A stretch of DNA of 39,960 bases from positions 1-39,960 of the forward strand of contig JALOQC010000044.1 in assembly GCA_025453555.1 (NCBI GenBank), given 5' to 3'. Shown piece by piece: positions 4,253 to 37,778 of this stretch (the first letter of the stretch is position 1; each line of letters starts with the position of its first letter). The position numbers and the translations under genes were made by a program. The DNA comes from Myxococcota bacterium (GTDB lineage: Bacteria; Myxococcota_A; Polyangia; Polyangiales; Houyiibacteriaceae). Under the pieces are notes generated by a model. It made no database searches, was not told where the DNA came from, and saw only the letters and a program-made list of their open reading frames with translations.

Positions 4253-4867
4253 TCACTCGAGCTCGAGGTTCAAGAAGATCTCCGCGTTGCGGTACAGCGT
4301 GTTGCCCTGGTCGAGACCGACCGAAAGCTCGAACGTGCTGATGCTCATGTCGTTGTCGATGTCACCGTTCGCGGCGAACGTGTACACCGAGTCGTTGACC
4401 ATCGCCGAGTCGCCGCACGTGACGCCGGGGTTGATCACGGTGCCGCCCATGCCGGCCGAGACGACTGCGTACTGGTAGTACAGGGGATCCGAGGCCTGCC
4501 AGCTCAGAGCGGCGAAGCCGAGCTCCGTGGCGGAGGTGGGCTCAGCCGGCCAGGTCAGGGTGTGCTTCTGGTCGCTGACCATCGCGCCGACCGCCGACGT
4601 ATCGATCGTCGGGGTGTAGCAGCGAGTCGAGTTCGAGGTGCCAGTGCCACGGGCGATGACGCCGCGGGCGGCGGTGCCGCGCTGGTAGAGCGACGCCGAG
4701 CCTTCGAACAGGGCCTTCAAGTTCGCGGGGGCCTCGGACGTCTTGGAGCGCTTCACGTAGTTGATGAACGCCGGGATCGCGATGGCGGCGAGGATGCCGA
4801 TGATGGCGACGACGATCATGAGCTCGATGAGGGTGAAGCCCTCCTTCTTCTTCAGCAGCTTGTTCAT
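4253..4867 (-). CDS. pilA: type IV major pilin PilA
   Basis: The 204-residue protein has a class III prepilin leader [10 protein letters not shown] followed by [20 protein letters not shown]. The prepilin peptidase should cut after Gly10 and methylate Phe11; Glu at mature position 5 is present. A short basic stretch (YVKRSK) follows the helix. The C-terminal globular domain has two Cys (in TRCYT and GVTCGD), fitting a stabilising disulphide, and a D-rich loop GDIDNDM before the last strands. The ATG at 4867 has a good ribosome binding site (AAGGAG, 8 nt upstream). Its own sigma-54 promoter lies at 4916-4931 and a hairpin terminator follows, as expected for an abundant pilus subunit. A second pilin gene lies just upstream. 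It is the likely filament subunit for twitching or social motility and adhesion. Confidence 0.93.
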
Positions 4868-10419: not shown

Positions 10420-11471
10420 CGCGACGCAGTGTCCGACGAAACGGGCGCGGGTTGAAGCGAGTCCGTCTCGGGACTGTTGCGGTCCGAGTCGGAGGCGGAG
10501 GCCGTGTCGGAGCCAGTGTCGTCGGAGTCAGAGTCGGTGACAGTGTCGGAGTCGGTGACGGTGTCGGAGTCGGTGACGGTGTCGGAGTCGGAGCCCGTGT
10601 CGGAACCGGAGACGTCGCCCCGACTTGTGCGGCGTCGTTCGGAGCTCTGCGTCGATGCGGCGGTCGCGCGCAGCCGTCGGTACGCCACGAGCCGCGCTTG
10701 GTAGGGGCGCGGATCGTCGGCGACCTCGACCGCGCGGGCGAACGCGGCTTCGGCTTCGTCGTAGCGGCGGAGCTCGTGGAGCAAGATGCCGCGGCCGACG
10801 TGGGCAGCGGCGAACCGACGATCGGTCTGCAGCACCGCGTCGTAGATCGCGAGCGCGTCCTCGTAGCGGCGCGCGTTGACGAGGAGCGCAGCGAGGGGGA
10901 GCTGGAGCGTACGCTCGTTCGGTCGGTGGCGGAGGCCTTCGCGGAACGCGGACTCCGCGCCCGCGCGATCGCCGAGCTGATGGCGAGCGAGGCCGAGCGC
11001 CTTCCAGGTCTCGGCGTGGGTGGGCTCGAGCGCACACGCGCGCGCGAGGGGATCGAGCGCGGCGTCGGCTTGGTTCCAGCGGAGCAGGCGGGTGCCGAGG
11101 ACGCGGTGGGCGTAGGCGCTCTCGGGGGCGATCTCGATCGCGCGGCCGTACGCGCGCAGCGCGGCGTCGTAGTCACGCTGGAGCTCGTGGGTGAAGGCGA
11201 TCTCGACGACGGGGCGCGGATCGTTCGGGCGGAGCGCGGCGAGGCGCGCGAACGCGGCGCGCGCGCGCTCGGGGCGATCCGCGAGGAGCTCGGCGCGCGC
11301 GAGCTCGAGCCAGCGCGAGCCCTTCTGCGGTTCTTCCGCTGCGGCACGGGCGAAGCGCTCCGCGGCTTCGTCGAAGCGGCCTTCGGACATCGCGCGCCGA
11401 CCGAGGCGGACGTCGCGGGGAGAGCACGCGACGACGAGCGCGAGGAGGGCGAAGAGCGCGACGCGCTGCAG
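10416..11471 (-). CDS. TPR-repeat lipoprotein with low-complexity ends
   Basis: A lipoprotein signal (QRVALFALLALVVAC, lipobox VVAC) is followed by five to six TPR units (for example SEGRFDEAAERFARAA and RRYDEAEAAFARAVEV). The protein ends in a Ser/Asp/Thr-rich tail made of SDTVTD repeats. No ATG, GTG or TTG lies in frame anywhere near the signal peptide. The nearest candidate is the CTG at 11471; upstream of it the frame runs through a second tandem repeat (SPTRAP units) and then into antisense of the neighbouring gene. The repeat may have displaced the original start. The stop overlaps the pilR-like start by GTGA. It may be a pilotin or assembly-type outer-membrane TPR lipoprotein linked to pili, but the identity is not certain. 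Confidence 0.7.
10475..10613 (-). repeat. 18-bp imperfect tandem repeat encoding SDTVTD, C-terminal tail
   Basis: Plus-strand units such as GTGTCGGAGTCGGTGACG recur three to four times, flanked by degenerate GTCGGAG copies. In the minus-strand lipoprotein gene they encode SDTVTD, SDTG and SDSD blocks of the C-terminal tail. All units keep the frame. Confidence 0.85.
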
Positions 11472-11477
11472 CGGAGT

Positions 11478-11646
11478 CCGAGACGGAGGCGGAGTCCGAG
11501 ACGGAGTCCGAGACGGTGACGGAGTCCGAGACGGTGACGGAGTCCGAGACGGTGACGGAGCTCGAGACGGTGACGGAGCTCGAGTCGGTGACGGAGCTCG
11601 AGTCGGTGACGGAGCTCGAGTCGGTGACGGAGCTCGAGTCGGTGAC
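11478..11646 (-). repeat. 18-bp tandem repeat at the 5' end of the TPR lipoprotein gene
   Basis: Eight exact-length 18-bp units occupy 11503-11646: three GGAGTCCGAGACGGTGAC, one GGAGCTCGAGACGGTGAC and four GGAGCTCGAGTCGGTGAC. Degenerate 12-bp units lie on the low-coordinate side. The step-wise change along the array points to successive local duplications. In the lipoprotein frame it would read SPTRAP/SPSRTP, but it probably lies upstream of the coding start. Confidence 0.9.
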
Positions 11647-11702
11647 GCGCTCGGCGCCTTGCGCGCTTGACGGCCTCCGTCGCGCCGCGAATGCTCGCGC
11701 GC

Positions 11703-13941: not shown

Positions 13942-14880
13942 ATGAGCGACCAACGCAGCCTCGCACCTTCGGACCCGGTGTCTGCGGACTTCGCGTCCTT
14001 CGTGAGCCGGAGGCGCGAGGCGGTGCGCGGCGGCGGGACGGAGGAGGGGACGCGCTACGCGTTCGGCGCCGACCTGCAGATGCTGCGCACGATGCGGCGG
14101 ATGAAGCCGCTCGAGATGTTCGTGGGGACCGCAGTGCGCGCGATGGGGCAGTTCCTCGCGTCGCAGAACCTCGGGACGATGGTGCGGGTGGGGCCGACGC
14201 AGAGCCCACGCATCTACCGCATCGCGCGCGAGTGCGCGGACGCGCTCGGGGTCGCGGTGCCGACGCTCTACGTGGCCAACAGCCCCGTGATGAACGCGTA
14301 CACGTACGGAACCGACGACGACTCGTTCATCGTGGTGCACGCGAAGCTGATCGACGACTTCACGGACGAAGAGCTGAAGTTCGTGATCGGCCACGAGATG
14401 GGTCACATCCAGAACCGTCACGTGGTCTACCTGACCGCGATGCGGATGCTGACGAGCGGCTTCGCGCAGCTCATCCGCTTCATGCTCGAGCCGGTGCTGC
14501 TCACGTGGGCGCGGCGCGCCGAGATCACCTGCGACCGCGCGGGGCTGCTCTGCTGCGGCGACGTCGACGTCGCGACGCGCACGTTCCTGAAGATGGCGTG
14601 CGGTTCGACCAAGCTCTACGACGAGCTCAACGTCGAGGCGTACCTCGATCAGCTCGAAGCGAACCAAGAGAGCGCGGGGCGCTTCTCGGAGCTCTTCGCG
14701 TCGCACCCGTACCACCCCAAGCGCATCCGCTCGCTGCAGCTCTTCGCGGAGAGCGAGCTCTACCGCAAGTGCCTCGGGCTCCCGGGCGGGATGACGATGG
14801 AAGAGGTCGACCGCCGCACGCTGGAGATCGTGCAGGTGATGAAGGGCAAGAGCGTGCCACAGCTCGCGCCTGGCGAATGA
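13942..14880 (+). CDS. M48-family zinc metalloprotease
   Basis: The 312-residue protein carries the zinc site HEMGH (about residues 150-154, in FVIGHEMGHIQNRH) and a downstream Glu ligand in RRAEITCDRAGLLC, the M48 pattern. There is a weakly hydrophobic stretch around residues 170-190 but no clear signal peptide, so it is probably cytoplasmic or membrane-associated. The C-terminal SHPYHPKRIRSL is the typical HPxxxxRI motif near the end of M48 peptidases. HtpX- and LoiP-type relatives degrade misfolded membrane proteins; the substrate here is unknown. Confidence 0.87.
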   Translation: MSDQRSLAPSDPVSADFASFVSRRREAVRGGGTEEGTRYAFGADLQMLRTMRRMKPLEMFVGTAVRAMGQFLASQNLGTMVRVGPTQSPRIYRIARECADALGVAVPTLYVANSPVMNAYTYGTDDDSFIVVHAKLIDDFTDEELKFVIGHEMGHIQNRHVVYLTAMRMLTSGFAQLIRFMLEPVLLTWARRAEITCDRAGLLCCGDVDVATRTFLKMACGSTKLYDELNVEAYLDQLEANQESAGRFSELFASHPYHPKRIRSLQLFAESELYRKCLGLPGGMTMEEVDRRTLEIVQVMKGKSVPQLAPGE

Positions 14881-15144: not shown

Positions 15145-16908
15145 GTGATCGACTACGGTGATCTCAAGATCCAGGTCCTCGGGGGGCTCCGCGAGGTCGC
15201 GCGCCTCGCGGAAGAGAGCGGCGCCAAGAGCCTCGCGCGAGGCCTCCGCGAGGACCGCATCGCGCGGCTCGAGGACGAGCGCTTCCACCTCGTCGTGCTC
15301 GGCGAGTTCAACCACGGCAAGACGACGTTCGTGAACGCGCTGCTCGGCGCGTCGGTGCTGCCGATGGGCGTGACGCCGACGACCGCGGTGATCCACCGCA
15401 TCCAATACGGTGCCGAGCAGGCCGCGAAGGCGTTCGGCGAGGACGGGCTGGTGAAGTCGGTGCCCTTCGACGCGCTCGGCGACTACGAGGTCGACGGCAA
15501 GGCGCTCGCCGACGCGGTGCAGCACCTCGACGTGTTCTTTCCGGCCGAGTTCCTCAAGGACGGCGTGGTGCTGGTGGACACCCCCGGCGTCAACGACCTG
15601 AACGAGGCGCGCGCCGAGATCACCTACGGGTACATTCCGCGCTCGGACGCCATCCTGTTCCTGCTCGATGCCGGGCAGATCCTGAAGGAGAGCGAGCGTC
15701 AGTTCGTCGCGAACAAGCTGCTCGCTCAGTCGCGGGACAAGGTGATCTTCATCGTCAACAAGATGGACCTCCTCGACGACGAAGAGCGCCAAGAGGCGAT
15801 CGCTTACGCGCGGATGAACCTCGGCAAGCTCATCGAGGAGCCGAAGCTCTTCGGCATCAGCGCCGAGCGCGCGCTGGAGGGCGATCGCGCCGGCTCGGGC
15901 ATGGACGCGCTGGTCGACGAGCTCGAGCGCTTCCTGAAGGAAGAGCGCGGCCGCGTGTTGCTCGACAACGCGCTCGACGCGGGGATTCGCACGGCGGCGA
16001 CGCTGCGAACGGGCATCGAGATCCAGAAGCGCGCGCTCGCGATGGAGCACGGCGAGCTCGAGCGGCGCCTGCAGGCGCTCGAGAACGATCTGGAGACGAG
16101 CGCGGAGCGCATGGCGGAGCGCAAGGCTCGCATCCGGGAGTCGCTGGCGGCCGTGAAGGCGCTCGTGCGGGCGGACGTGGAGGGCTTCGCGCGGCGCTTC
16201 GCGGCGCAGCTTCCGGACGAGATCGATGCCGCGGAGGCCAAGGATCTGCGAAAGTATCTCGCGGGATTTTTGGAAGAACGCTTCAAGCGGTTCGCGGAAC
16301 AAGAGACCGAAGAGGTCGCGCGTCGCTTGGAGAAGGTGGCAGAAGAGGCGATCGCGTTCGTGACCGAGGACACCGCGGCGCGGGCGGAGCACCTGCGGGC
16401 GCTGCTCGGCGACGACGCGCCCAAGCTGGACCTGCAGGTCAGCACCTTCGCGAGCGACGTGGGCGTGTTCGTGATCGGCGCCTTCGGCGTGACGCTGATG
16501 GTGCTCTCGAACGTGCTCGTGGGTGGCGCGCTGGCGCTCGCGGCGCCAGTGCTCGCGTACGTGGTGCGCGGACGCGCGGACAAGCAGCTCAAGGAGAAGG
16601 CGAAGGAAGAGGCGCCCAAGGCCGTGATCGCGGCGGCAGAGAAGATGGCCGACGCCTTCGACGAGCGCATCGACGAGGTGGGCGAGAAGCTGCTGCACTT
16701 CGTGAGCGCGGCGAACGCGGACGTGACCAAGAGCGTCGCGGAGCTCGTGCGCACCGCGCGGGAAGCGACGCAGCGTGGGACCGAGGCGACGGAGGAGCTG
16801 ACGAGCGCGACGGGGATGAGCCTGGCGCGCCTCGCGGACGTCGAGTCGCGCATGACGCGGACACGGCAGACGCTCTGGGCCAACGGGAGCGGCGAGACGA
16901 CGCACTGA
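15145..16908 (+). CDS. bacterial dynamin-like GTPase
   Basis: The 587-residue protein begins with a GTPase domain: P-loop GEFNHGKTT (about 53-61), switch I PTTAV, DTPGVND (about 146) and NKMD (about 205). Long amphipathic coiled-coil helices (about 285-420) follow, then a hydrophobic paddle or membrane hairpin (about 435-470, from VGVFVIGAFGVTLMV) and another coiled coil. This is the bacterial dynamin-like layout used for membrane remodelling or repair. The GTG start at 15145 is supported by GGAGG 5 nt upstream. The preceding 264 bp (14881-15144) hold no recognisable gene. Only one dynamin gene is present, whereas such genes often occur in pairs. Confidence 0.88.
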   Translation: MIDYGDLKIQVLGGLREVARLAEESGAKSLARGLREDRIARLEDERFHLVVLGEFNHGKTTFVNALLGASVLPMGVTPTTAVIHRIQYGAEQAAKAFGEDGLVKSVPFDALGDYEVDGKALADAVQHLDVFFPAEFLKDGVVLVDTPGVNDLNEARAEITYGYIPRSDAILFLLDAGQILKESERQFVANKLLAQSRDKVIFIVNKMDLLDDEERQEAIAYARMNLGKLIEEPKLFGISAERALEGDRAGSGMDALVDELERFLKEERGRVLLDNALDAGIRTAATLRTGIEIQKRALAMEHGELERRLQALENDLETSAERMAERKARIRESLAAVKALVRADVEGFARRFAAQLPDEIDAAEAKDLRKYLAGFLEERFKRFAEQETEEVARRLEKVAEEAIAFVTEDTAARAEHLRALLGDDAPKLDLQVSTFASDVGVFVIGAFGVTLMVLSNVLVGGALALAAPVLAYVVRGRADKQLKEKAKEEAPKAVIAAAEKMADAFDERIDEVGEKLLHFVSAANADVTKSVAELVRTAREATQRGTEATEELTSATGMSLARLADVESRMTRTRQTLWANGSGETTH

Positions 16909-16984: not shown

Positions 16985-18112
16985 ATGGCATTACGCATCG
17001 GCGACATGCTCGTCGCGGCCGGGTTCGTCACCGAAGAACAGGTCCGCGAGGCGCTCACGGAGCAGCGGTCGTCGGGGCGGCGGCTCGGCGAGGAGCTGGT
17101 CTCGCTCGGCTTCGTGACCGAGGTCCAGCTCATCCAGGTGCTGAGCAACCAGCTCTCGGTGCCCTGGGTCTCGCTGCATCACATCGAGATGACGCGCGAG
17201 CTGCTCGACCTGGTGCCCGCCGAGGTCGCGGATCGCTACGGGCTCATCCCCGTGTACAAGCGCGTGGTGCGGCGCGAGGGCGAGACGCTCTTCGTCGCGA
17301 TGGACGACCCGACCAACGAAGACGCGATCCGCGAGGTGTCGCGCGCGTGTGGGCTTCCCGTGAAGCCGATGGTCGCGCCGCCGACCGACATCCGGAATGC
17401 GATCCGGGTCTACTACCTCGGCATGGCGCCGAAGCCGCCCGAGGCGCCGAAGCGCGCGCGTCGGCACACGGACGACTCCGTGAAGGTGATGACCGCGAAC
17501 GCCGAAGCGAAGGCCGCCGAATCGGCCGCGGCGGACGTCGCCGATCCGGTGAGCGCGTCGGCGCGGAGCACCGCGACGGTGCCGGAGTCGACGAGCACGA
17601 AGCCAGCCCGCGCGCCGGAGTCGGAACCGGTCCCCGCCGCCGCCGTCCCCGCCTCCGCCGTCCCCGCCGCCGACGTCCCCGCCGCCGACGTCCCCGCCGC
17701 CGACCGGACTTCGGCGACGCCGACCGCCGCAGTGACGGCACCGACCGGGAGCGACACGGCGCGCGCGCCGACCGAGACCGCGGCCGCGAAGCCGACGCCG
17801 GCGTCGAAGACCGAGACCAAGCCGAAACAACGTTTCGTCACGCTGACGCTGCTCGACGGGACGACGGTGCGCTTGCCTGCGCAGCGCAAGCCGAGCGGAG
17901 ACGCGGAAGAACCCTTGCGAGGCGGCGGGCTCACGGGCGCGGATCTCGTGCGCGCGTTGCTCGCGAAGGGGCAGGGCGCGGCGGTGGACGACGTGCTCGG
18001 TGGCGCGAGCTGGGAGGTCCTCTGCGCGACCATCCTGCAGCTCATGCTGAAGAAGGGGCTCGTCGCGGACTGGGAGTTCGTCGAGGCCTACAAGAAGAAC
18101 CTCGGGCAATGA
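16985..18112 (+). CDS. stand-alone MshEN (c-di-GMP receptor-type) domain protein
   Basis: The 375-residue protein opens with a full GspE-N/MshEN domain (residues 3-145). The twin nucleotide-binding half-motifs are RIGDMLVAAGFVTEEQV (from R4) and RRLGEELVSLGFVTEVQL (from R32), each ending in an xxLxxQ element. This motif binds cyclic di-GMP in MshE-type ATPases. The secretion ATPase domain that normally follows is absent. Instead there is a 170-residue Ala/Pro/Thr/Ser-rich linker, including PAADV repeats from a 15-bp DNA repeat around 17655-17703, and a small C-terminal domain (residues 275-375: FVTLTLLDGTTVRLP, then helices). It is a likely adaptor that relays c-di-GMP level to a partner, perhaps in pilus or secretion machinery. 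The partner is unknown. Confidence 0.8.
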   Translation: MALRIGDMLVAAGFVTEEQVREALTEQRSSGRRLGEELVSLGFVTEVQLIQVLSNQLSVPWVSLHHIEMTRELLDLVPAEVADRYGLIPVYKRVVRREGETLFVAMDDPTNEDAIREVSRACGLPVKPMVAPPTDIRNAIRVYYLGMAPKPPEAPKRARRHTDDSVKVMTANAEAKAAESAAADVADPVSASARSTATVPESTSTKPARAPESEPVPAAAVPASAVPAADVPAADVPAADRTSATPTAAVTAPTGSDTARAPTETAAAKPTPASKTETKPKQRFVTLTLLDGTTVRLPAQRKPSGDAEEPLRGGGLTGADLVRALLAKGQGAAVDDVLGGASWEVLCATILQLMLKKGLVADWEFVEAYKKNLGQ

Positions 18113-18215: not shown

Positions 18216-18476
18216 GTGACGGGCTTGGTGAAGTCGCTCTTGGCCTTGGTGGGGCTCGCGGTGGTCGCGTACGTGGTGCTCTTCATCCCGCTCGGGCGCT
18301 ACACGCTCTACCAGCACGCGCAGCGCATCGCGGGGACCGACGAGGCGCAGGAGCTCGGCGATGAAGCCGCGATCGCCGCAGAACGCCTGCGCGAGCACGT
18401 GGAGGGCGAGCTCGACCAGCACGTGCGCGACGCGGGACCGCGCGACGCGGGGATCGACACTGGCGCCGCGCGCTGA
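18216..18476 (+). CDS. small single-pass membrane protein (86 aa)
   Basis: The GTG start at 18216 is preceded by a strong GGAGGAG. A hydrophobic helix fills residues 5-26 (LVKSLLALVGLAVVAYVVLF), followed by an acidic, helical tail (DEAAIAAERLREHVEGELD) that ends in DAGPRDAG. It follows the MshEN gene by 103 bp and may be co-transcribed. The family is not recognised; it could be a membrane-tethered partner of its neighbour. Confidence 0.6.
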   Translation: MTGLVKSLLALVGLAVVAYVVLFIPLGRYTLYQHAQRIAGTDEAQELGDEAAIAAERLREHVEGELDQHVRDAGPRDAGIDTGAAR

Positions 18477-18564: not shown

Positions 18565-19785
18565 TCAGTCGAGGCGGCGGCTCGGGATCGCCACCACGTC
18601 CTCGATGCGCGGAGCTCCGAGCACCAACATCACGAGCCGATCGAAGCCGAGCGCGTTTCCGCCGCTCGGTGGCAGGCCTTCTTCGAGCGCGCCGAGGAAG
18701 GCTTCGTCGATCGGGTAGACGGGGAGGCCAGCTGCACGTCGCGCCTGCTGATCGCGCTCCAGGCGGTCGCGTTGCTCGACCGGATCGACGAGCTCGGCGA
18801 AGCCGTTGCAGAGCTCCATGCCGTCCACGTACGCCTCGAAGCGCTGGGCGACCTTCGGGTTGCGCGGATCGAGGCGCGCGAGCGAGGCCATGCTCGCGGG
18901 CCAATCGGTCACGAAGACCGGGCGAAATCGTCCGAGCTGCGGCTCGATCTGATCGACCAAGATCCGGAAGAACGTCTCTTCGCCGCTCGCGAGCACCGCG
19001 TCGACGTCGAGGCCCGCGTAGCGCGTGAACGCTTCGGCCACCGTGAGCCGATCCCACGGCGGCGCGACGTCCACCGGCGTGCCGCGCGCGGGGATGACGG
19101 TGCTGCCGTCGAGCACGGACTGCGCGACGTGCGCGACGAGTTGCTCGGTGTCGCGCATCACCTCGTCCGCGCCGGAGAACGCGCGGTACCACTCGATCAT
19201 CGTGAACTCGGGCTCGTGGCGCTCGCCGAGCTCGCCGCGGCGGAAGCACCGACACATCTGGTAGATGCGTGGCGCGCCACCCGCGAGGATGCGCTTCATC
19301 TGGTATTCGGGGCTCGTGATGAGCCAGCGCGCGGGATCCGCGCCCGCGATGGGGAACGCGTCGAGGTGCAGATCGAGCCCCGGGCTCGGCACCATCGAGG
19401 GCGTCTCGACCTCGAGGAACGCGCGCCGATCGAAGTGCTCGCGCACCGCGCGTCGCATCACGGCGCGCTTCTTCAAACGTTCGAGCCGACCTTCGCTCTG
19501 AAAGAAGAGCCACTCGCCGCTCGCCTTGGGGAAGGGTACCCGCGGCGGGTTGAGCAGACGACACGAGGCCTGTGCGATCCGCGTTCCGTCGAAGGTCCCC
19601 TCCACCGTCACCCACGCGCCGAGCACGGGCGACACCTCGTCCGCGACGTCGACCCAGACGCTGCCGCTCACGTCGCGCACGAGCACCGCAGGGCCGTCGA
19701 CGTGGATGACTCGTCCGCCGATCTTCGCGGGCGCGGGCGGCCGGAGACGGAGCGCGATCTCGATGGGATAGCGGGGCGTGGACAT
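18565..19785 (-). CDS. epmA: EF-P beta-lysine ligase EpmA (PoxA/GenX), with extra N-terminal domain
   Basis: The 406-residue protein is a class II lysyl-tRNA synthetase paralogue. Motif 2 is RIYQMCRCFRRGELG followed by EPEFTMIEWYRA, and motif 3 is NALGFDRLVMLVLG. Ala in motif 3, where LysRS has Gly, is the EpmA signature linked to (R)-beta-lysine use. EpmA normally has about 325 residues and no anticodon domain; here about 80 extra N-terminal residues (GGRVIHVDGPAVLV, VTVEGTFDG) look like a reduced OB fold. It joins beta-lysine to the conserved Lys of EF-P, and efp lies just upstream on the same strand, which strongly supports the assignment. EpmB (lysine 2,3-aminomutase) is not in the window. 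Confidence 0.9.
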   Translation of the reverse strand: MSTPRYPIEIALRLRPPAPAKIGGRVIHVDGPAVLVRDVSGSVWVDVADEVSPVLGAWVTVEGTFDGTRIAQASCRLLNPPRVPFPKASGEWLFFQSEGRLERLKKRAVMRRAVREHFDRRAFLEVETPSMVPSPGLDLHLDAFPIAGADPARWLITSPEYQMKRILAGGAPRIYQMCRCFRRGELGERHEPEFTMIEWYRAFSGADEVMRDTEQLVAHVAQSVLDGSTVIPARGTPVDVAPPWDRLTVAEAFTRYAGLDVDAVLASGEETFFRILVDQIEPQLGRFRPVFVTDWPASMASLARLDPRNPKVAQRFEAYVDGMELCNGFAELVDPVEQRDRLERDQQARRAAGLPVYPIDEAFLGALEEGLPPSGGNALGFDRLVMLVLGAPRIEDVVAIPSRRLD

Positions 19786-19953: not shown

Positions 19954-20517
19954 TCAGCCCTTCACGCGCTCGACGTACTCGCCGGTGCGCGTGTCGATCT
20001 TCAGCATCTCGCCCTCTTCGACGAAGAGCGGGACGTTGACCACGAGGCCCGACGAGAGCGTCGCCTGCTTGGTGGTGTTGCCGCTCGTGTCGCCCTTGAA
20101 GCCGGGCTCGGTCGAGACGACCTGCAGATTCACGAACGTTGGCGGCGTGATGCCGATCGGACGCCCCTGGAAGAGCATCACGTACACGTTCATGTTGTCG
20201 AGCAGGTAGAACTTGTTGTCGCCGAGGTCCTCCGCGCTGATGCGCATCTGCTCGTAGGTCTGCGTGTCCATGAACACGTAGTCCTCGCCCTCCGGGTAGA
20301 GGTACTGCATCTCGACCTCTTCACACTCGGCCTTGTCGACCTTCTCGCCGCTCTTGAAGGTGCGCTCGAGCGTGTTGCCCGTGATCATGTTCTTGAGGCG
20401 CGTGCGGACGAACGCCTGGCCCTTGCCGGGCTTCACGAACTGATGATCGACGACGGAGTAGGGCTGTCCGTCGAGAAGCATCTTGAAGCCCTTCTTGATG
20501 TCGGTCGTGTCGGCCAT
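19954..20517 (-). CDS. efp: translation elongation factor P
   Basis: The 187-residue, full-length EF-P has the KOW-like N-terminal domain, the domain II OB fold (MDTQTYEQM) and the C-terminal OB domain with VNVPLFVEEGEMLKIDTRTGEYVERVKG. The tip loop is KPGKGQAF with Lys32 in the position that E. coli EpmA modifies (Lys34), rather than the Arg used in rhamnosylated EF-P. It rescues ribosomes stalled at polyproline; the proline-rich proteins in this window (for example the linker of the MshEN protein) would be clients. It has its own terminator and epmA follows. Confidence 0.96.
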   Translation of the reverse strand: MADTTDIKKGFKMLLDGQPYSVVDHQFVKPGKGQAFVRTRLKNMITGNTLERTFKSGEKVDKAECEEVEMQYLYPEGEDYVFMDTQTYEQMRISAEDLGDNKFYLLDNMNVYVMLFQGRPIGITPPTFVNLQVVSTEPGFKGDTSGNTTKQATLSSGLVVNVPLFVEEGEMLKIDTRTGEYVERVKG

Positions 20518-23680: not shown

Positions 23681-23695
23681 CCGCTGGCTGCGGCG

Positions 23696-23912
23696 AGTCC
23701 GAGACAGAGTCCGTCCGTGACCGAGTCCGAGTCCGAGACAGAGTCCGAGACGGAGTCCGAGTCCGAGACGGAGTCCGAGTCCGAGACGGAGTCCGAGTCC
23801 GAGGAGTCCGAGACGGAGTCCGAGTCCGAGACGGAGTCCGAGTCCGAGTCCGAGACAGAGTCCGAGACAGAGTCCGAGACAGAGTCCGAGACGGAGTCCG
23901 AGACGGAGTCCG
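23696..23912. repeat. 6/12-bp tandem repeat (GAGTCC/GAGACG) filling a convergent spacer
   Basis: About 217 bp of GAGTCC, GAGACA and GAGACG hexamers lie between the stop codons of two convergent genes (23680 and 23916). The array is in frame with the phasin-like gene and would read as a TESESE acidic run if its stop were bypassed; the frame then stays open to about 24004. Codon use resembles the Glu/Ser tail of the gene itself. Confidence 0.92.
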
Positions 23913-31296: not shown

Positions 31297-31544
31297 CCAC
31301 GACCGCCCGGTCCTCGCGTTCGGATTCGACGCTCTCGTTCGTCGCACACGTGAGGTCCACGCGGGTCGCAGCGCGGCACTCGTGGTCGATCGCGTCGACG
31401 CGCGCCCGGTCGTCAGGAGGCTCCCGACTCGAGCCGCTCGACTAGCGTGTTTTCCCTGGGTTTGGGGAGCACTGGCCGCGCGCCGGAAAAATCCCGTCAG
31501 AGCGTCCGCGTGATTGCGTGTACGCCCGTCCTCCGAGGGGACTC

Positions 31545-34500
31545 ATGGACGGACGACGGCTGAAGATCACCCACGCTGCGACGGCGGCGTGCCTCTGTCT
31601 GATCGCGGCGACGGCGCGCGGCGACGGCGTGGCGAACGTGATGACCTCGAAGTCGTTGCCGCCCGCGACGCTCGCGGTGATCGACCCGGAGAGCGGCACG
31701 TCGAGCGGCGGGGGCAGCACCGACGTGAACGTCGGGCCGGGCGACATCATCTTCTTCCGGTTCAACTACTACCCGGTTCCGGACAAGATCATCCGGGGTC
31801 TGAACACGTATCTGACCGAGTACATCCCCTCGAACACGCAGGTGGTCGGGGTGCGGATCCTCGACGAGAACGGCCTCGCGCGCACGCCCTTCTATCCGGG
31901 CATCGCGATGGACGACTGCGGCGGTAGCTGTAACAACTTCAACTCGGTCCCGTCGACCGCGGGAACGCGCAACCTCGACAACGGCACCATCGCGCAGCTC
32001 TACGCGGACACCGGTGTCTTCTACGCGCCGCGCCCGGGTTACACGGCGGCGATCACCACCGTCACGCGCAACCCGGCGACCAGCTTCCTCGCGCTGACCA
32101 ACGGCATCCTCATGGATCCGGAGCCGGTGCGGGTGGGCGACGTCTCGACGCTGCTCGGCCTGGTCGGCGACCCCTTCATCCACAACCGCTGGGACTGGGC
32201 TCAGGTGCGCGCCTACGGCATCGCGAACCCGCGTGGGAACGCGAGCGGCAACAACGGCACGGGAAACACGCCGTTTCGCTACGGATCGCCCGTCGCGGGT
32301 CCGGATACGTTCTACGGGTTCGAAGCCACGGAGGTGAGCGCAGGCAACCTCCGCTTCGACGACGTCGTCGGGCCCTGGGGGCGCGTTCAGTACCCGGGCG
32401 GGACGATCGGACGCGGTTGCTCGTACGACAACCGCGCGTCGTGCGTCGAGCCCGGCACCAACACCCTCGGCCGCATGCTCGCGGACGCCTCGACGCGTGG
32501 CCTCGACATCACGCCCGCGAGCCCGCTCCCCGCGAGCGCGCGTGCGCTGCGTTTCGCGCTCGGAGAGGCGCGGGTGGGCGAGCCGCAGGTGGTGGAAGTC
32601 GCGCTTCGCGTGTTGAGCACGCCGCTCGACGGTGTGCAGATGGAGGACGTCGACTGCGCGGAGATCTTCGGTGGAGACACCTCGGCCGCGAGTGAGACCG
32701 TGCGCGCGAAGGACAACGCGTGGAACACCCATCTCGCGTCGGCCGCGTGTGTGTACCTGAAGCTGAAGTTCGATCTGAACGTCGACCGCGCCCTCGCGCT
32801 GACCGGCGATCTGCTCACGTACACCCTCGACGGTTCCAACCTCTCGCGCTTCGATCAGAACTCCGTGGTGGTGCGGCAGCGCTACGACTCGTCGCGCCAG
32901 TCGTTCGTGAGCGCGATCCCCGCCCCGACGCGACAGACCACGTGCGGCGGGCTCGCGTGTCTGGAGTGGGATCTCGCGACGCTCACCCCCGGCGAGGACT
33001 TCGTCATTCAATCGCAGTTCACGGTGGGTGGCGGCGGCCAGACCACGAACGTGATGTTCGCGGAGTACGCGTCGACCGACATCCCGCGCTTCGAGACCCA
33101 GGCGCTGACGATCGTGCGCCCCGTGGGCGTGGTCGACGTGAGCCTGCGGCCGACCTTCGATCCGACGGCGAGCTTCGCGAGCGCGGGCGCCAACGCGTCG
33201 CTCTCCGGCACCCTCGGGAACACGGGCACGGGCGACTTCACCGTCGACACGCTGACCTTCGAGCTGCCCGTCTCCACGTGGCGTCCGGGCGGCTCGCTCG
33301 CGTTGAGCTGTCCGGGCGGCACCAACGCGTCGCTCGCCTGCAACAGCGGCTGCGCGACCAACCGGCCGACGTATCGCCTCAACGAGTCGATCCCGGGCGG
33401 CCGCACCTGCACCTTCACGGTGCCGGTCGCGGTGCCGGCGGGGACGGCGGCGGGGCTCTACCCGATCGCGGTGCAGACGTGGTCGTCGCAGACCGCGTTC
33501 GGTGGCGCATCCGAGACGTGGTTCCGTGACGCGGCGATCCTCAACGTCGGGCAACGGCGCTCGCAGCGGCCGACGCTGACGTGCCCGATCTTCTCGCCCC
33601 AGACGACGATCGCGGGCGCGACGACCGAAGCGACCGGCACGACGGCGCGCGTGTACCTCGGTGGCTATCGGCGTGGCTCGACCGGAACGTCGGTGGCGGG
33701 CGGCGCGTGGACGGTCGGCACCTTCGGGGACACGACGGCGTTCGGTGCGCTCTACGGCGGCCTGGAGGTGCGCGCGACCGCGCAAGCGACGGGCGAGCTC
33801 GAGTCCGAGAAGTCCGATGCGTGCTTCGTCACGCAGCTCCCCGTGTGTGGTGACGGGCTCGACAACGACGGCGATGGGCTCGTCGACTTCCCGGCCGATC
33901 CGGGCTGTTCGTCGACGAACGACCGCGACGAGACCGACGTGCAGTGCAGTGACGGGCTCGACAACGACGGCGACGGGCGGATCGATTTTCCGGACGATCC
34001 GGAGTGCTCGAGCCCGAACGACACCACCGAAGGCGGCACCCCGCAGTGCAGCGACGGGATCGACAACGACGGCGACGGGCTCGTCGACTTCCCGGCGGAC
34101 TCCGACTGCACGAGCGCGGCGGATCGGATCGAGCGCGCGCAGCCGGCGTGCAACGACGGCGTCGACAACGACGGCGACGGCGACGTGGACTTCCCGGACG
34201 ACGTCGGCTGCCACTCGGCGGAGGACACGAACGAGGTCGATCCCTCGCCGACCGAAGGAGAGACGCGCGCGCGCCTGCTGCTCGTGCTCGACAGCTCGGG
34301 CTCGATGAACTGGAACACCTGTTTGGACACCTTCACGGGCGGCGACGGATCGGACGAGTGCGCGGGCGGCGACGTGAGCTGCGCGACGTGCAGCGCGATC
34401 GGCTGTGGCGACGGCGTCGCGAACGACTCGCGCCTCGACAAGGCCAAGCGCGGGCTCTCGCAGGTCGTGCAGGGCTTCGGTGAGGTGGAGTACGGGCTCA

Positions 34501-37500
34501 TGCGCTTCCACCAGCGCGCGATGGACTTCGCCTGTCCGACGCAGAACGCGTCGAACCAGAGCGGCGGTTGGCAGGGCGCGGGCGCGCCGGTGTGCGGCGG
34601 CGGCTTCAACGCCGCGGATCTCTTGGTGGGTTTCAGCCAGGAGAACCAGCGCGATCTGCTCGCGTGGATGGATGGCGAGTCCGGTACCGCGGGGGTTCCG
34701 CCGGCGGGTGGCGACGTGGAGATCCGTGGTTCGGGCACCACGCCGCTCGCGGGGAGCCTCACGAGCGCGCGTGACTACCTCGAGGACGTGGAGGCGATGG
34801 ACGCGCGTGCGTCGTGTCGTCCGTACGTCGTGATCCTCGTGACGGATGGCGTCGAGACGTGCGGGGGCAACCCGGTCGCGGCGGCCGACGCGCTGCGGCT
34901 CGCGGGGTACGTGACCTACGTGGTCGGCTTCGCGGTGAACGATCCCGCGGCGCGCGACTCGCTCGACGACATCGCGGCGGCGGGTGGTGGATCGCCGACC
35001 GCGATCTTCGTGAGCGACGAGGCGGAGCTCGCGACGCGCATCAGCGACATCATCGACGACACCGTGCTCGTCGAGGTCTGCAACGGCGCGGACGACGACT
35101 GCGACACGTTGATCGACGAAGGCGTGCAGAACGCGTGTGGCGCGTGCGGCGCGGTGCCCGGCGAGACCTGCAACGGGGTCGACGACGACTGCGACGGCGT
35201 GGTCGACGACGGCGTGCGCAACGCGTGCGGCGGCTGCGGACCTTTGCCGGCCGAGGCGTGCAACGGGCTCGACGACGACTGTGACGGCGCGACGGACGAG
35301 GGCGGCGTGTGCCCGTGTCCGGCGCCTTCGCCGGAGCTCTGCGACGACAGCGACAACGACTGCGACGGCATCGTCGACGAGGGCCTCGTGCGCGGGTGCG
35401 GGACCGAGGTCGGCGCGTGCTCGGCCGGCACCGAGACTTGCGCGGCGGGCGTGTGGGGCATGTGCACCGGCACCGGGCCGACGACCGAGACCTGCAACGG
35501 GCTCGACGACGACTGCGACGGAATCGTCGACGGCGTCACGCGGCCCTGCGGGACCGACGTCGGCGTGTGTCAGACCGGCGTCGAGATCTGCGTCGGAGGT
35601 GCGTTCGACACCTCGACGTGCGTGGGCGCGGTGACGGGCGGTGCCGAGCTCTGCAACACGCTCGACGACGACTGCGACGGACGCACCGACGAAGGCACGG
35701 ATCCGGGCACGAGCTGCGGCTCGAGCCTCGGGCTCTGCACGACGGGCACGCTGCGCTGCGTCGCCGGCACGCTGCAATGTCAGGGCGGCACGGGGCCGGT
35801 CGCGGAGACCTGCGACGGCGCCGACCAAGACTGCGACGGTCGGATCGACGAAGGCGCGCCGACCGACGGACCGTGCGGCGAATCGACCGGGGCGTGCGAG
35901 CCGGGCGTGCGGACGTGCGTGATGGGGGCGTACACCTGCGTCGGCGCGGTGGGCCCGCGAACCGAGATCTGCAACGCGGTCGACGACGACTGCGACGGAA
36001 GCCTCGACGAAGGCAACCCGGGCGGCGGCGCGGTCTGCGGTGTCACCGAGGGCGCGTGCGAGTCGGGCACCACGACGTGTGTGGGCGGGACGCTGACCTG
36101 CGTCGGCGGTGTCGAGCCGGTGGGCGAGCTCTGCAACGTGGTCGACGACGACTGCGACGGGCTCGTCGACGAAGGCAATCCGGGAGGCGGTGCGCCGTGC
36201 GGCGGAACGGACGTCGGCGAGTGCGAGCTCGGCGCGGAGGCGTGCCGTGCGGGTGCCATCGTCTGCGTGGGCGAGCGCGGGCCGACGGCGGAGCTCTGCA
36301 ACGGCCTCGACGACGACTGCGACGGGAACGTCGACGAAGGAAACCCCGAGGCAGGCGACGCGTGCGGCGACGACACGGGCGAGTGCATGCCCGGTATCAC
36401 CGCGTGCACCGGCGGCGAGCTCGTGTGCGAAGGCGCGACCGGTCCGATGGACGAGGTCTGCAACGGGCTGGACGACGACTGCGACGGAGTCGCGGACGAC
36501 GGGCTCGACGTGGGCGCGCCGTGCGGCTCCGACGAAGGCGAGTGCATCCCGGGCTTCCGGAGCTGCGTGGACGGCGCGATCGTGTGCGAGGGCGAGGTCG
36601 GCCCGATGGGCGAGAGCTGCAACGCGCTCGACGACGACTGCGACGGGCGCGTCGACGAGGAGCTGCCGGCCGGTGGGGTGTGCGGCGCCACGGAAGGCGT
36701 CTGCATGCCGGGCATGCTCCAGTGCGTCGACGGCGCGGAGGTCTGCGTGGGCGGGGTGCCGTCGGCGGACGAGCGCTGCGACTGCGACGACAACGACTGC
36801 GACGGAGAGATCGACGAGGGCTCGCTCTGCGGTGCGACCGGGAGCTGCGTCGACTGTCGGTGCGCGCTGCCCTGCAGCGACAGCGAGTTCGGACGTTGCC
36901 CGACGGGCCGCGTCGAGCTCGACGTGGACGGCGAGTGCTTCTGCGTCGCACCACGCTGCAACCCGGAGACGTGCGGCGACGAGGCGGTCACCGCGGGTGA
37001 CGGAACGGTGCGCTGCGCGCCGGGCATGGACGGCGTGCCCGAGTGTACGTGCGTCGCGAACGAGTGCACGTTCCCCTGCGACGGAGTGGTCTGCGGCGAG
37101 CCGACCGTCTGCAACCCGCGCACCGGACGCTGCGTGGTCGACGACTGCACGGGGCTCGGCTGCCTCTCGACCGAGGTCTGCGAGATCGCCACGGGCGACT
37201 GCATCCCGCACCCGTGCGACGACGTGACGTGCGAGGCGACGGAGGCGTGCCGCGACGGTACGTGCGAGCCGTCCTGCGGCAGCACGACCTGCGACGACGG
37301 CGAGCGTTGTCGCGCGGGCGTCTGCGAGGAGGACCCCTGCGACGGCGTGAGCTGTCCGGTGGGTCTGCGCTGCGACGACACGGGCGAGTGCGTCACCAAC
37401 CCGTGCTCGGGGATCACGTGTCCGGGCGGCACCACCTGCGACCCGACGGATGGCTCGTGCGGCGAGGACCCGTGCGCGCGGGTCATCTGTCCGGGTGAGG

Positions 37501-37774
37501 AGCGCTGCGAGGCGGGCGAGTGTGTCGCTCCGGAGCCGCCACCGATGGACGGCGGCGTACCCGAAGAAGACGCGGGCACGATGGAGCTCGACGCGGGGAT
37601 CGACGCCGGCGGTGATCCGGAGGACCCCGAGGATCGAATCCTCGCCGCGGGCGGCGGTGGCTGCACGTGCCGCGTGGACGCTGGCGACGTGGGTGGGGGA
37701 GAGGAGCCGCTCTCGTGGCTCGTGCTCGCGGTGCCGGTCTTGATCGCGATCCGTCGTCGTCGGGGAGGTGTGCG

Positions 37775-37778
<4 letters not shown>
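31545..37778 (+). CDS. giant surface protein: VWA domain, MopE-type repeats, MYXO-CTERM-like tail
   Basis: The protein has about 2077 residues from the ATG at 31545 (GAGGGG upstream) and a signal peptide to about ARG (residue 26). Residues 27-760 are beta-sandwich-like with few Cys. Four CxDGxDNDGDGxxDFP repeats follow (about 766-905), then a VWA domain (about 912-1170) with the MIDAS motif LDSSGSM and TDGVET. Thirteen CNGxDDDCDGxxDEG repeats (about 1177-1757; MopE-type putative metal-binding motif) precede EGF-like Cys-rich modules (about 1768-2000) and a tail with GGCTC, a hydrophobic helix (WLVLAVPVLIAI) and RRRR. The tail fits MYXO-CTERM sorting to the outer membrane. It is a likely calcium-binding adhesin. 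The 248 bp upstream hold no recognisable gene. Confidence 0.85.

Follow-up and report, generated by a model that had tools for sequence, protein, structure and literature searches.

The open reading frame considered here raises the question of what an MshEN domain, which binds cyclic di-GMP (c-di-GMP) in Vibrio cholerae MshE, does in a protein that has no ATPase. The frame begins with ATG and encodes an MshEN domain, a linker and a C-terminal module (Table 1). It lies in a stretch of 39,960 nucleotides, called the window below, which comprises positions 1 to 39,960 of contig JALOQC010000044.1 in the genome of a Myxococcota bacterium (GCA_025453555.1), a draft of 699 contigs that is 89% complete. 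Known c-di-GMP receptors are outnumbered in many bacteria by the enzymes of c-di-GMP synthesis and breakdown, which makes the circuits harder to understand (PMC8316039), and a further receptor candidate matters for this reason. Judged from its sequence and those of its relatives, the window protein may well be a cytoplasmic c-di-GMP receptor or adaptor with a novel docking module, a reading to which we assign a probability of roughly 0.55.

Table 1. Coordinates of the MshEN gene, its parts and its immediate neighbours in the window
Feature	Coordinates	Strand	Remark
MshEN-linker-C-terminal protein, coding sequence	16985..18112	+	375 aa; MshEN and a related C-terminal part also at 41 other loci
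c-di-GMP half-motif I, residues 4-27	16994..17065	+	NF053729 match, residue table
c-di-GMP half-motif II, residues 33-56	17081..17152	+	NF053729 match, residue table
MshEN_C subdomain, residues 58-145	17156..17419	+	PF05157 match
Flexible linker, 138 residues (146-283)	17420..17833	+	predicted to be almost without secondary structure
15-bp tandem repeat, 5 copies, inside the linker	17630..17704	+	
Conserved TLLDGTTVRLP beta-hairpin, about residues 284-299	17834..17881	+	
Conserved C-terminal helical module, residues 315-375	17927..18109	+	
Small membrane protein, 86 aa	18216..18476	+	usual neighbour in the window's family f1, not dedicated to the MshEN protein
Dynamin-like GTPase	15145-16908	+	Dynamin_N, E 1.3e-29; directly upstream of the MshEN gene

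The N-terminal part is matched by two family models, both far above their cut-offs: NCBIfam NF053729, the cyclic-di-GMP motif domain, corresponds to residues 4-56 over all 53 of its positions (E 3.6e-21, 74.7 bits, cut-off 38), and Pfam MshEN (PF05157) to residues 58-145 (E 6.7e-19, 68.1 bits, cut-off 23.1). The whole MshEN domain occupies residues 4-145, and its half-motifs are separated by residues 28-32, in agreement with the published motif of two 24-residue half-motifs and a 5-residue spacer (PMC5013675). No ATPase-domain family appears in the Pfam or NCBIfam lists for the 375 residues, and no T2SSE ATPase domain follows MshEN in the Pfam list. The full-length PilB and NfrB models of NCBIfam match the window protein through the MshEN part alone, the PilB model at residues 5-180. 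The initial annotation, made from the letters of the sequence, was therefore correct in describing a stand-alone MshEN protein from which the ATPase is absent. The linker, which is rich in Ala and Pro, had been given as 170 residues, a length that applies when it is counted to residue 315 and becomes 138 if the hairpin at residues 284-299 is assigned to the C-terminal domain; the small C-terminal domain proposed there is present as a hairpin (LLDGTTVRLP) followed by helices, and it is conserved among relatives.

Two AlphaFold2 models, built from four input sequences, are weak (pLDDT 50 for the whole protein and 58 for the C-terminal part) and agree in predicting four helices in MshEN_N, an unstructured linker and a hairpin at about residues 283-299, with C-terminal helices placed near residues 318-329, 343-356 and 363-371. 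The top PDB fold match of the whole-protein model is 5htl, V. cholerae MshEN with c-di-GMP (E 3.4e-7, rmsd 13 A), a match that leans on sequence because of this rmsd and the pLDDT of 50.

NfrB, PA3740, Myxococcus xanthus FrgA and Bdellovibrio Bd2402 resemble the window protein in that MshEN is joined to a part other than a motor ATPase; to our knowledge, none of them carries this C-terminal module. With the MshEN domain of V. cholerae MshE (PF05157, 5htl), the window protein shares the two 24-residue half-motifs, the 5-residue spacer and MshEN_C, and it differs from MshE in having no ATPase, a long linker and a novel C-terminal module. Fusion of MshEN to varied, uncharacterised domains, with as many as 22 genes in M. 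xanthus, has already been published, as has its occurrence away from motor ATPases, and FrgA, PA3740, Bd2402 and phage N4 adsorption in Escherichia coli are named in that context (PMC5013675). The apparent novelty lies in this family and its C-terminal module. Among the titles and abstract openings listed by searches of open-licence papers, none names such a protein, and nothing was found there on MshEN together with Sorangium.

In the ligand site of the window protein, motif II fits the published pattern fully and motif I departs from it conservatively at two positions, where I5 and V20 each stand in for Leu, so that the claim of two intact half-motifs stands for motif II and requires this qualification for motif I. 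The same substitutions recur in a family of 42 loci, with Ile at position 5 in 14 and Val at position 20 in 13 members. When 12 key ligand positions are considered (Arg at R9, Arg or Lys at R38, two Gly, two Gln and six hydrophobic classes), all are kept in 30 of the 42 members with conservative changes allowed, and no member deviates at the equivalents of G11, L29 and G40. Degenerate motif residues in an alignment, which the initial annotation named as an observation that would speak against its proposal, were not seen in the window protein, which keeps the residue class at all 12 positions. One to three key positions deviate in 12 of the 42 members, and binding may therefore be lost in some lineages. 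The isolated MshEN_N of V. cholerae (VcMshEN 1-62) binds c-di-GMP without the ATPase, with a KD of 0.35 uM, and mutation of any single conserved hydrophobic residue of VcMshE lowered affinity more than tenfold (PMC5013675). Because such substitutions are costly in VcMshE, the two changes in motif I of the window protein may matter, mild as Ile and Val are.

Nine MshEN matches are present in the window genome, and among the eight scored (the window's own and 7 of the 8 others, C176 being left out) the window protein is the only one to retain all 12 positions; the most degenerate rows are aligned only roughly. The genome also contains 13 GGDEF matches, two of which are pieces of one frame, and c-di-GMP is therefore very likely made in this organism. 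Two other MshEN frames of the genome deserve mention in their own right: a second short ATPase-free MshEN protein of 223 aa, with degenerate motif residues (L006, G000:C197:4500-7500), and a 485-aa open frame that starts with MshEN and continues, as read by eye, with a receiver and TPR (L007, G000:C526:15500-18500).

The 42 loci comprise the window, 20 loci from related genomes, two from Sorangium and 19 obtained by a profile search with the C-terminal module. In a scan of genome contigs, the same three-part protein was found in one MAG titled Myxococcales (L001) and in two Sorangium cellulosum genomes, a fourth match being to the low-complexity linker only. A search of 37 related genomes, the window's own included, supplied the 20 further loci, of which G001 lies on the same contig as L001; weaker matches, including that of G027 with two stops, were left out. 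In a tblastn search of plasmids, matches were limited to the MshEN parts of other proteins. In a tree, a single branch, with support 73/97 and present in 70% of 200 bootstrap trees, has all 42 members on one side. The shared architecture is partly a product of selection of the sample, because the loci were gathered through matches to the window protein or its end. It is also not uniform: the LDGT hairpin is missing in G010, G246 and G294, the C-terminus is divergent in G008, G024 and G033, and linker length, measurable by pattern in 38 members, ranges between 37 and 240 residues with a median of 96.

Phylogenetic profiling, which had been proposed in the initial annotation, was carried out with a profile of the C-terminal module (A2). 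It matched 29 of 282 genomes of the phylum, once in each, 27 of these belonging to the window's order and 2 lying elsewhere in the class. Within one draw of 43 genomes from the order, the module is thus found in 27, and divergent versions occur in two (G010 and G024) of the 16 without a match. All 19 of the newly retrieved C-terminal matches have MshEN in the same frame, as the remaining 10 were already known to have, so that in none of the 29 genomes was the module seen without MshEN.

Comparison of the window protein with its nearest relative, G001, indicates how the three parts evolve. In this one sequence pair, dN and dS are 0.11 and 0.57 for MshEN, 0.93 and 1.13 for the linker, and 0.21 and 0.65 for the C-terminus, which shows purifying selection on the two ends and hardly any on the linker. 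This pattern also identifies 16985-18112 as a real gene.

The C-terminal module, a putative partner-binding module conserved behind MshEN, yielded no significant match to Pfam (best E 0.0056, in 1 of 19 members) or to PDB sequences (best E 0.44), and no PDB fold with E at or below 0.001 was obtained with the weak model of pLDDT 58; the NCBIfam search had the window's whole protein as its sole query. A third MshEN half-motif was considered for the C-terminal helices and rejected, since hhalign aligns them with a probability of only 1.1%.

The model that we favour is one in which the N-terminal MshEN domain binds one molecule of c-di-GMP between its two half-motifs, as suggested by the motif, and the linker serves as a flexible tether to the C-terminal module, whose hairpin and about three helices would form a docking domain for one conserved partner. 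Binding of c-di-GMP at one end would then alter the action of the other end on this partner. Stand-alone adaptors of the PilZ type work in a similar manner, as small receptors without an enzyme, with a receptor fold unrelated to MshEN. The conservation of the motif, the conserved novel C-terminal module and the selection on both ends argue for the adaptor function put forward in the initial annotation, but the link to pili or secretion that accompanied it is unsupported, and the partner is more likely to be a signalling protein or regulator than the pilus motor. The first candidates are a receiver protein and sigma-54 regulators in one family and a Ser/Thr kinase in another. The family offers a receptor candidate present once per genome with an undescribed putative partner module, and thus a defined target; use of the C-terminal module as bait would be a direct way to what the receptor candidate controls.

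The neighbouring genes allow a more specific but tentative version, in which the C-terminal module controls the receiver, sigma-54 regulators or Ser/Thr kinase encoded beside it and so provides a c-di-GMP input to phospho-signalling. Among the loci of f12 (like f1, the window's own family, a kinship label from the search tool) and Sorangium, the kinase is divergently adjacent in 18 of 19 (16/17 in f12 and 2/2 in Sorangium). Of the 13 f1 loci, 9 have a sigma-54 regulator upstream and 6 have a single-domain receiver immediately upstream. Family searches with one representative each identified the kinase as Pkinase/AAA_16/TPR, both regulators as receiver, sigma-54 activator and HTH_8, and the receiver as a receiver alone. 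However, the f12 and Sorangium loci also share a HAD-like gene (17/19) and a CoA-transferase-like gene (14/19), both labelled by eye, and because unrelated genes recur as well, the adjacency may reflect general synteny. In addition, the neighbours differ between families, none is conserved across all of them, and in the window itself no receiver, sigma-54 regulator or kinase adjoins the gene; the receiver orthologue of the window genome, at 84% identity, lies on another contig.

The neighbourhood of the window gene is unusual among the loci. The dynamin-like GTPase and an M48 peptidase (13942-14880) were considered as conserved neighbours and rejected, neither having a match at E 1e-15 in the stretches retrieved for the other 41 loci. 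Genes around the loci were called with a script based on G+C by codon position, by which some were missed or misplaced (the kinase of Sorangium So ceGT47 was recovered by tblastn), and flanks are cut at several contig ends, leaving 73 bases upstream in G008. As a separate observation, a gene with a GGDEF pattern, identified by pattern only, follows the MshEN gene at a distance of no more than about 3 kb in three loci of f12, L074, L080 and L081 (G273, G246 and G294).

Extended to its full scope, the adaptor model would describe a protein found once per genome and common across a myxobacterial order, which links c-di-GMP to phospho-signalling (receiver and sigma-54, or Ser/Thr kinase) through its own undescribed docking domain and leaves the pilus motor, with its weaker MshEN motif, outside the main circuit; in this complete form the proposal is speculative.

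An unlikely alternative assigns the protein to type IV pili or type II secretion as a part acting in trans, which would dock into the PilB/GspE ring or platform and place a motor with a weaker MshEN motif of its own under the control of c-di-GMP. PilB-like MshEN domains indeed have Gln at the L29 equivalent and Ser or Asn at the R38 equivalent in 18 of 18 rows (L032-L039 and L099-L108, labelled PilB-like by frame length and, in the window genome, also by PDB matches), whereas all 42 stand-alone members have Leu at the first and Arg/Lys at the second of these positions. However, genus g2, which belongs to the family, has PilB-like matches but no stand-alone protein, and the PilB chain of 3jc8, which we take to be an M. 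xanthus structure, likewise has Gln at the L29 position. M. xanthus PilB is also reported to bind c-di-GMP (reviewed in PMC11656802). On both of these grounds, the PilB motif need not be dead.

The pilus locus that the initial annotation had brought forward in support of a relay to pili or secretion contains prepilin-like sequences at positions 4840 and 5507, on the opposite strand and 11-12 kb from the MshEN gene. Around the other family loci, the prepilin-like pattern had no match in 41 near stretches, whose flanks extend to about 7.6 kb at most, or in 20 further stretches. The latter come from 13 genomes, with both sides covered in 7 of them and one side in 6, and only these genomes reach a distance like that in the window; divergent pilins could be missed by such a pattern search. 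The T4P/T2SS ATPase pattern was likewise absent from 39 near stretches and the same 20 further ones. The link to pili or secretion through the gene neighbourhood was consequently rejected.

Still less probable is that the adaptor is tethered to the membrane as a pair with the small membrane protein encoded downstream, which the initial annotation had suggested as its partner. Because 10 homologues align with it, 18216-18476 is a real gene; a plasmid tblastn search with this protein gave no match. It adjoins the MshEN gene, in either orientation, in 13 of the 42 loci (12 of the 13 in f1, and G026), weaker matches are present at G024 and G033, and it lies about 1.3 kb away in two class-level outgroups. 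Its profile, however, matches 40 of the 282 genomes, of which 20 have the C-terminal module, two (G010 and G024) have divergent versions and the other 18 have neither the module nor a divergent copy that was found, and among the 29 genomes with the module, 9 gave no match for the membrane protein. In G002, G016 and G017 it is flanked by the same two sigma-54 regulators at a syntenic locus without an MshEN match, in G004 it lies beside one sigma-54 regulator on a different contig from the MshEN gene, and it is adjacent in none of the 19 loci of f12 and Sorangium. Since it occurs without the module and at syntenic loci free of MshEN, the membrane protein was rejected as a dedicated partner and is better regarded as a companion of the locus, which leaves the suggested partnership weak.

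A scaffold that has lost c-di-GMP binding is the least probable reading, one to which the deviating members and the two changes in motif I of the window protein lend something but against which stands the retention of the residue class at all 12 positions in the window protein and 29 others.

Several further features of the window were recorded. Four G+C-rich tandem-repeat arrays with units of 12-18 bp and similar make-up lie at 1-118, 10482-10604, 11472-11647 and 23694-23912, the last of them between called genes. Side by side on the minus strand are genes presumably encoding an EpmA-type lysyl-transferase-like protein (18565-19785) and an elongation factor P-like protein (19954-20517). A 2086-aa open frame at 31518-37778 on the plus strand contains MopE-type metal-binding motifs, a VWA domain and tandem repeats of 90-159 bp.
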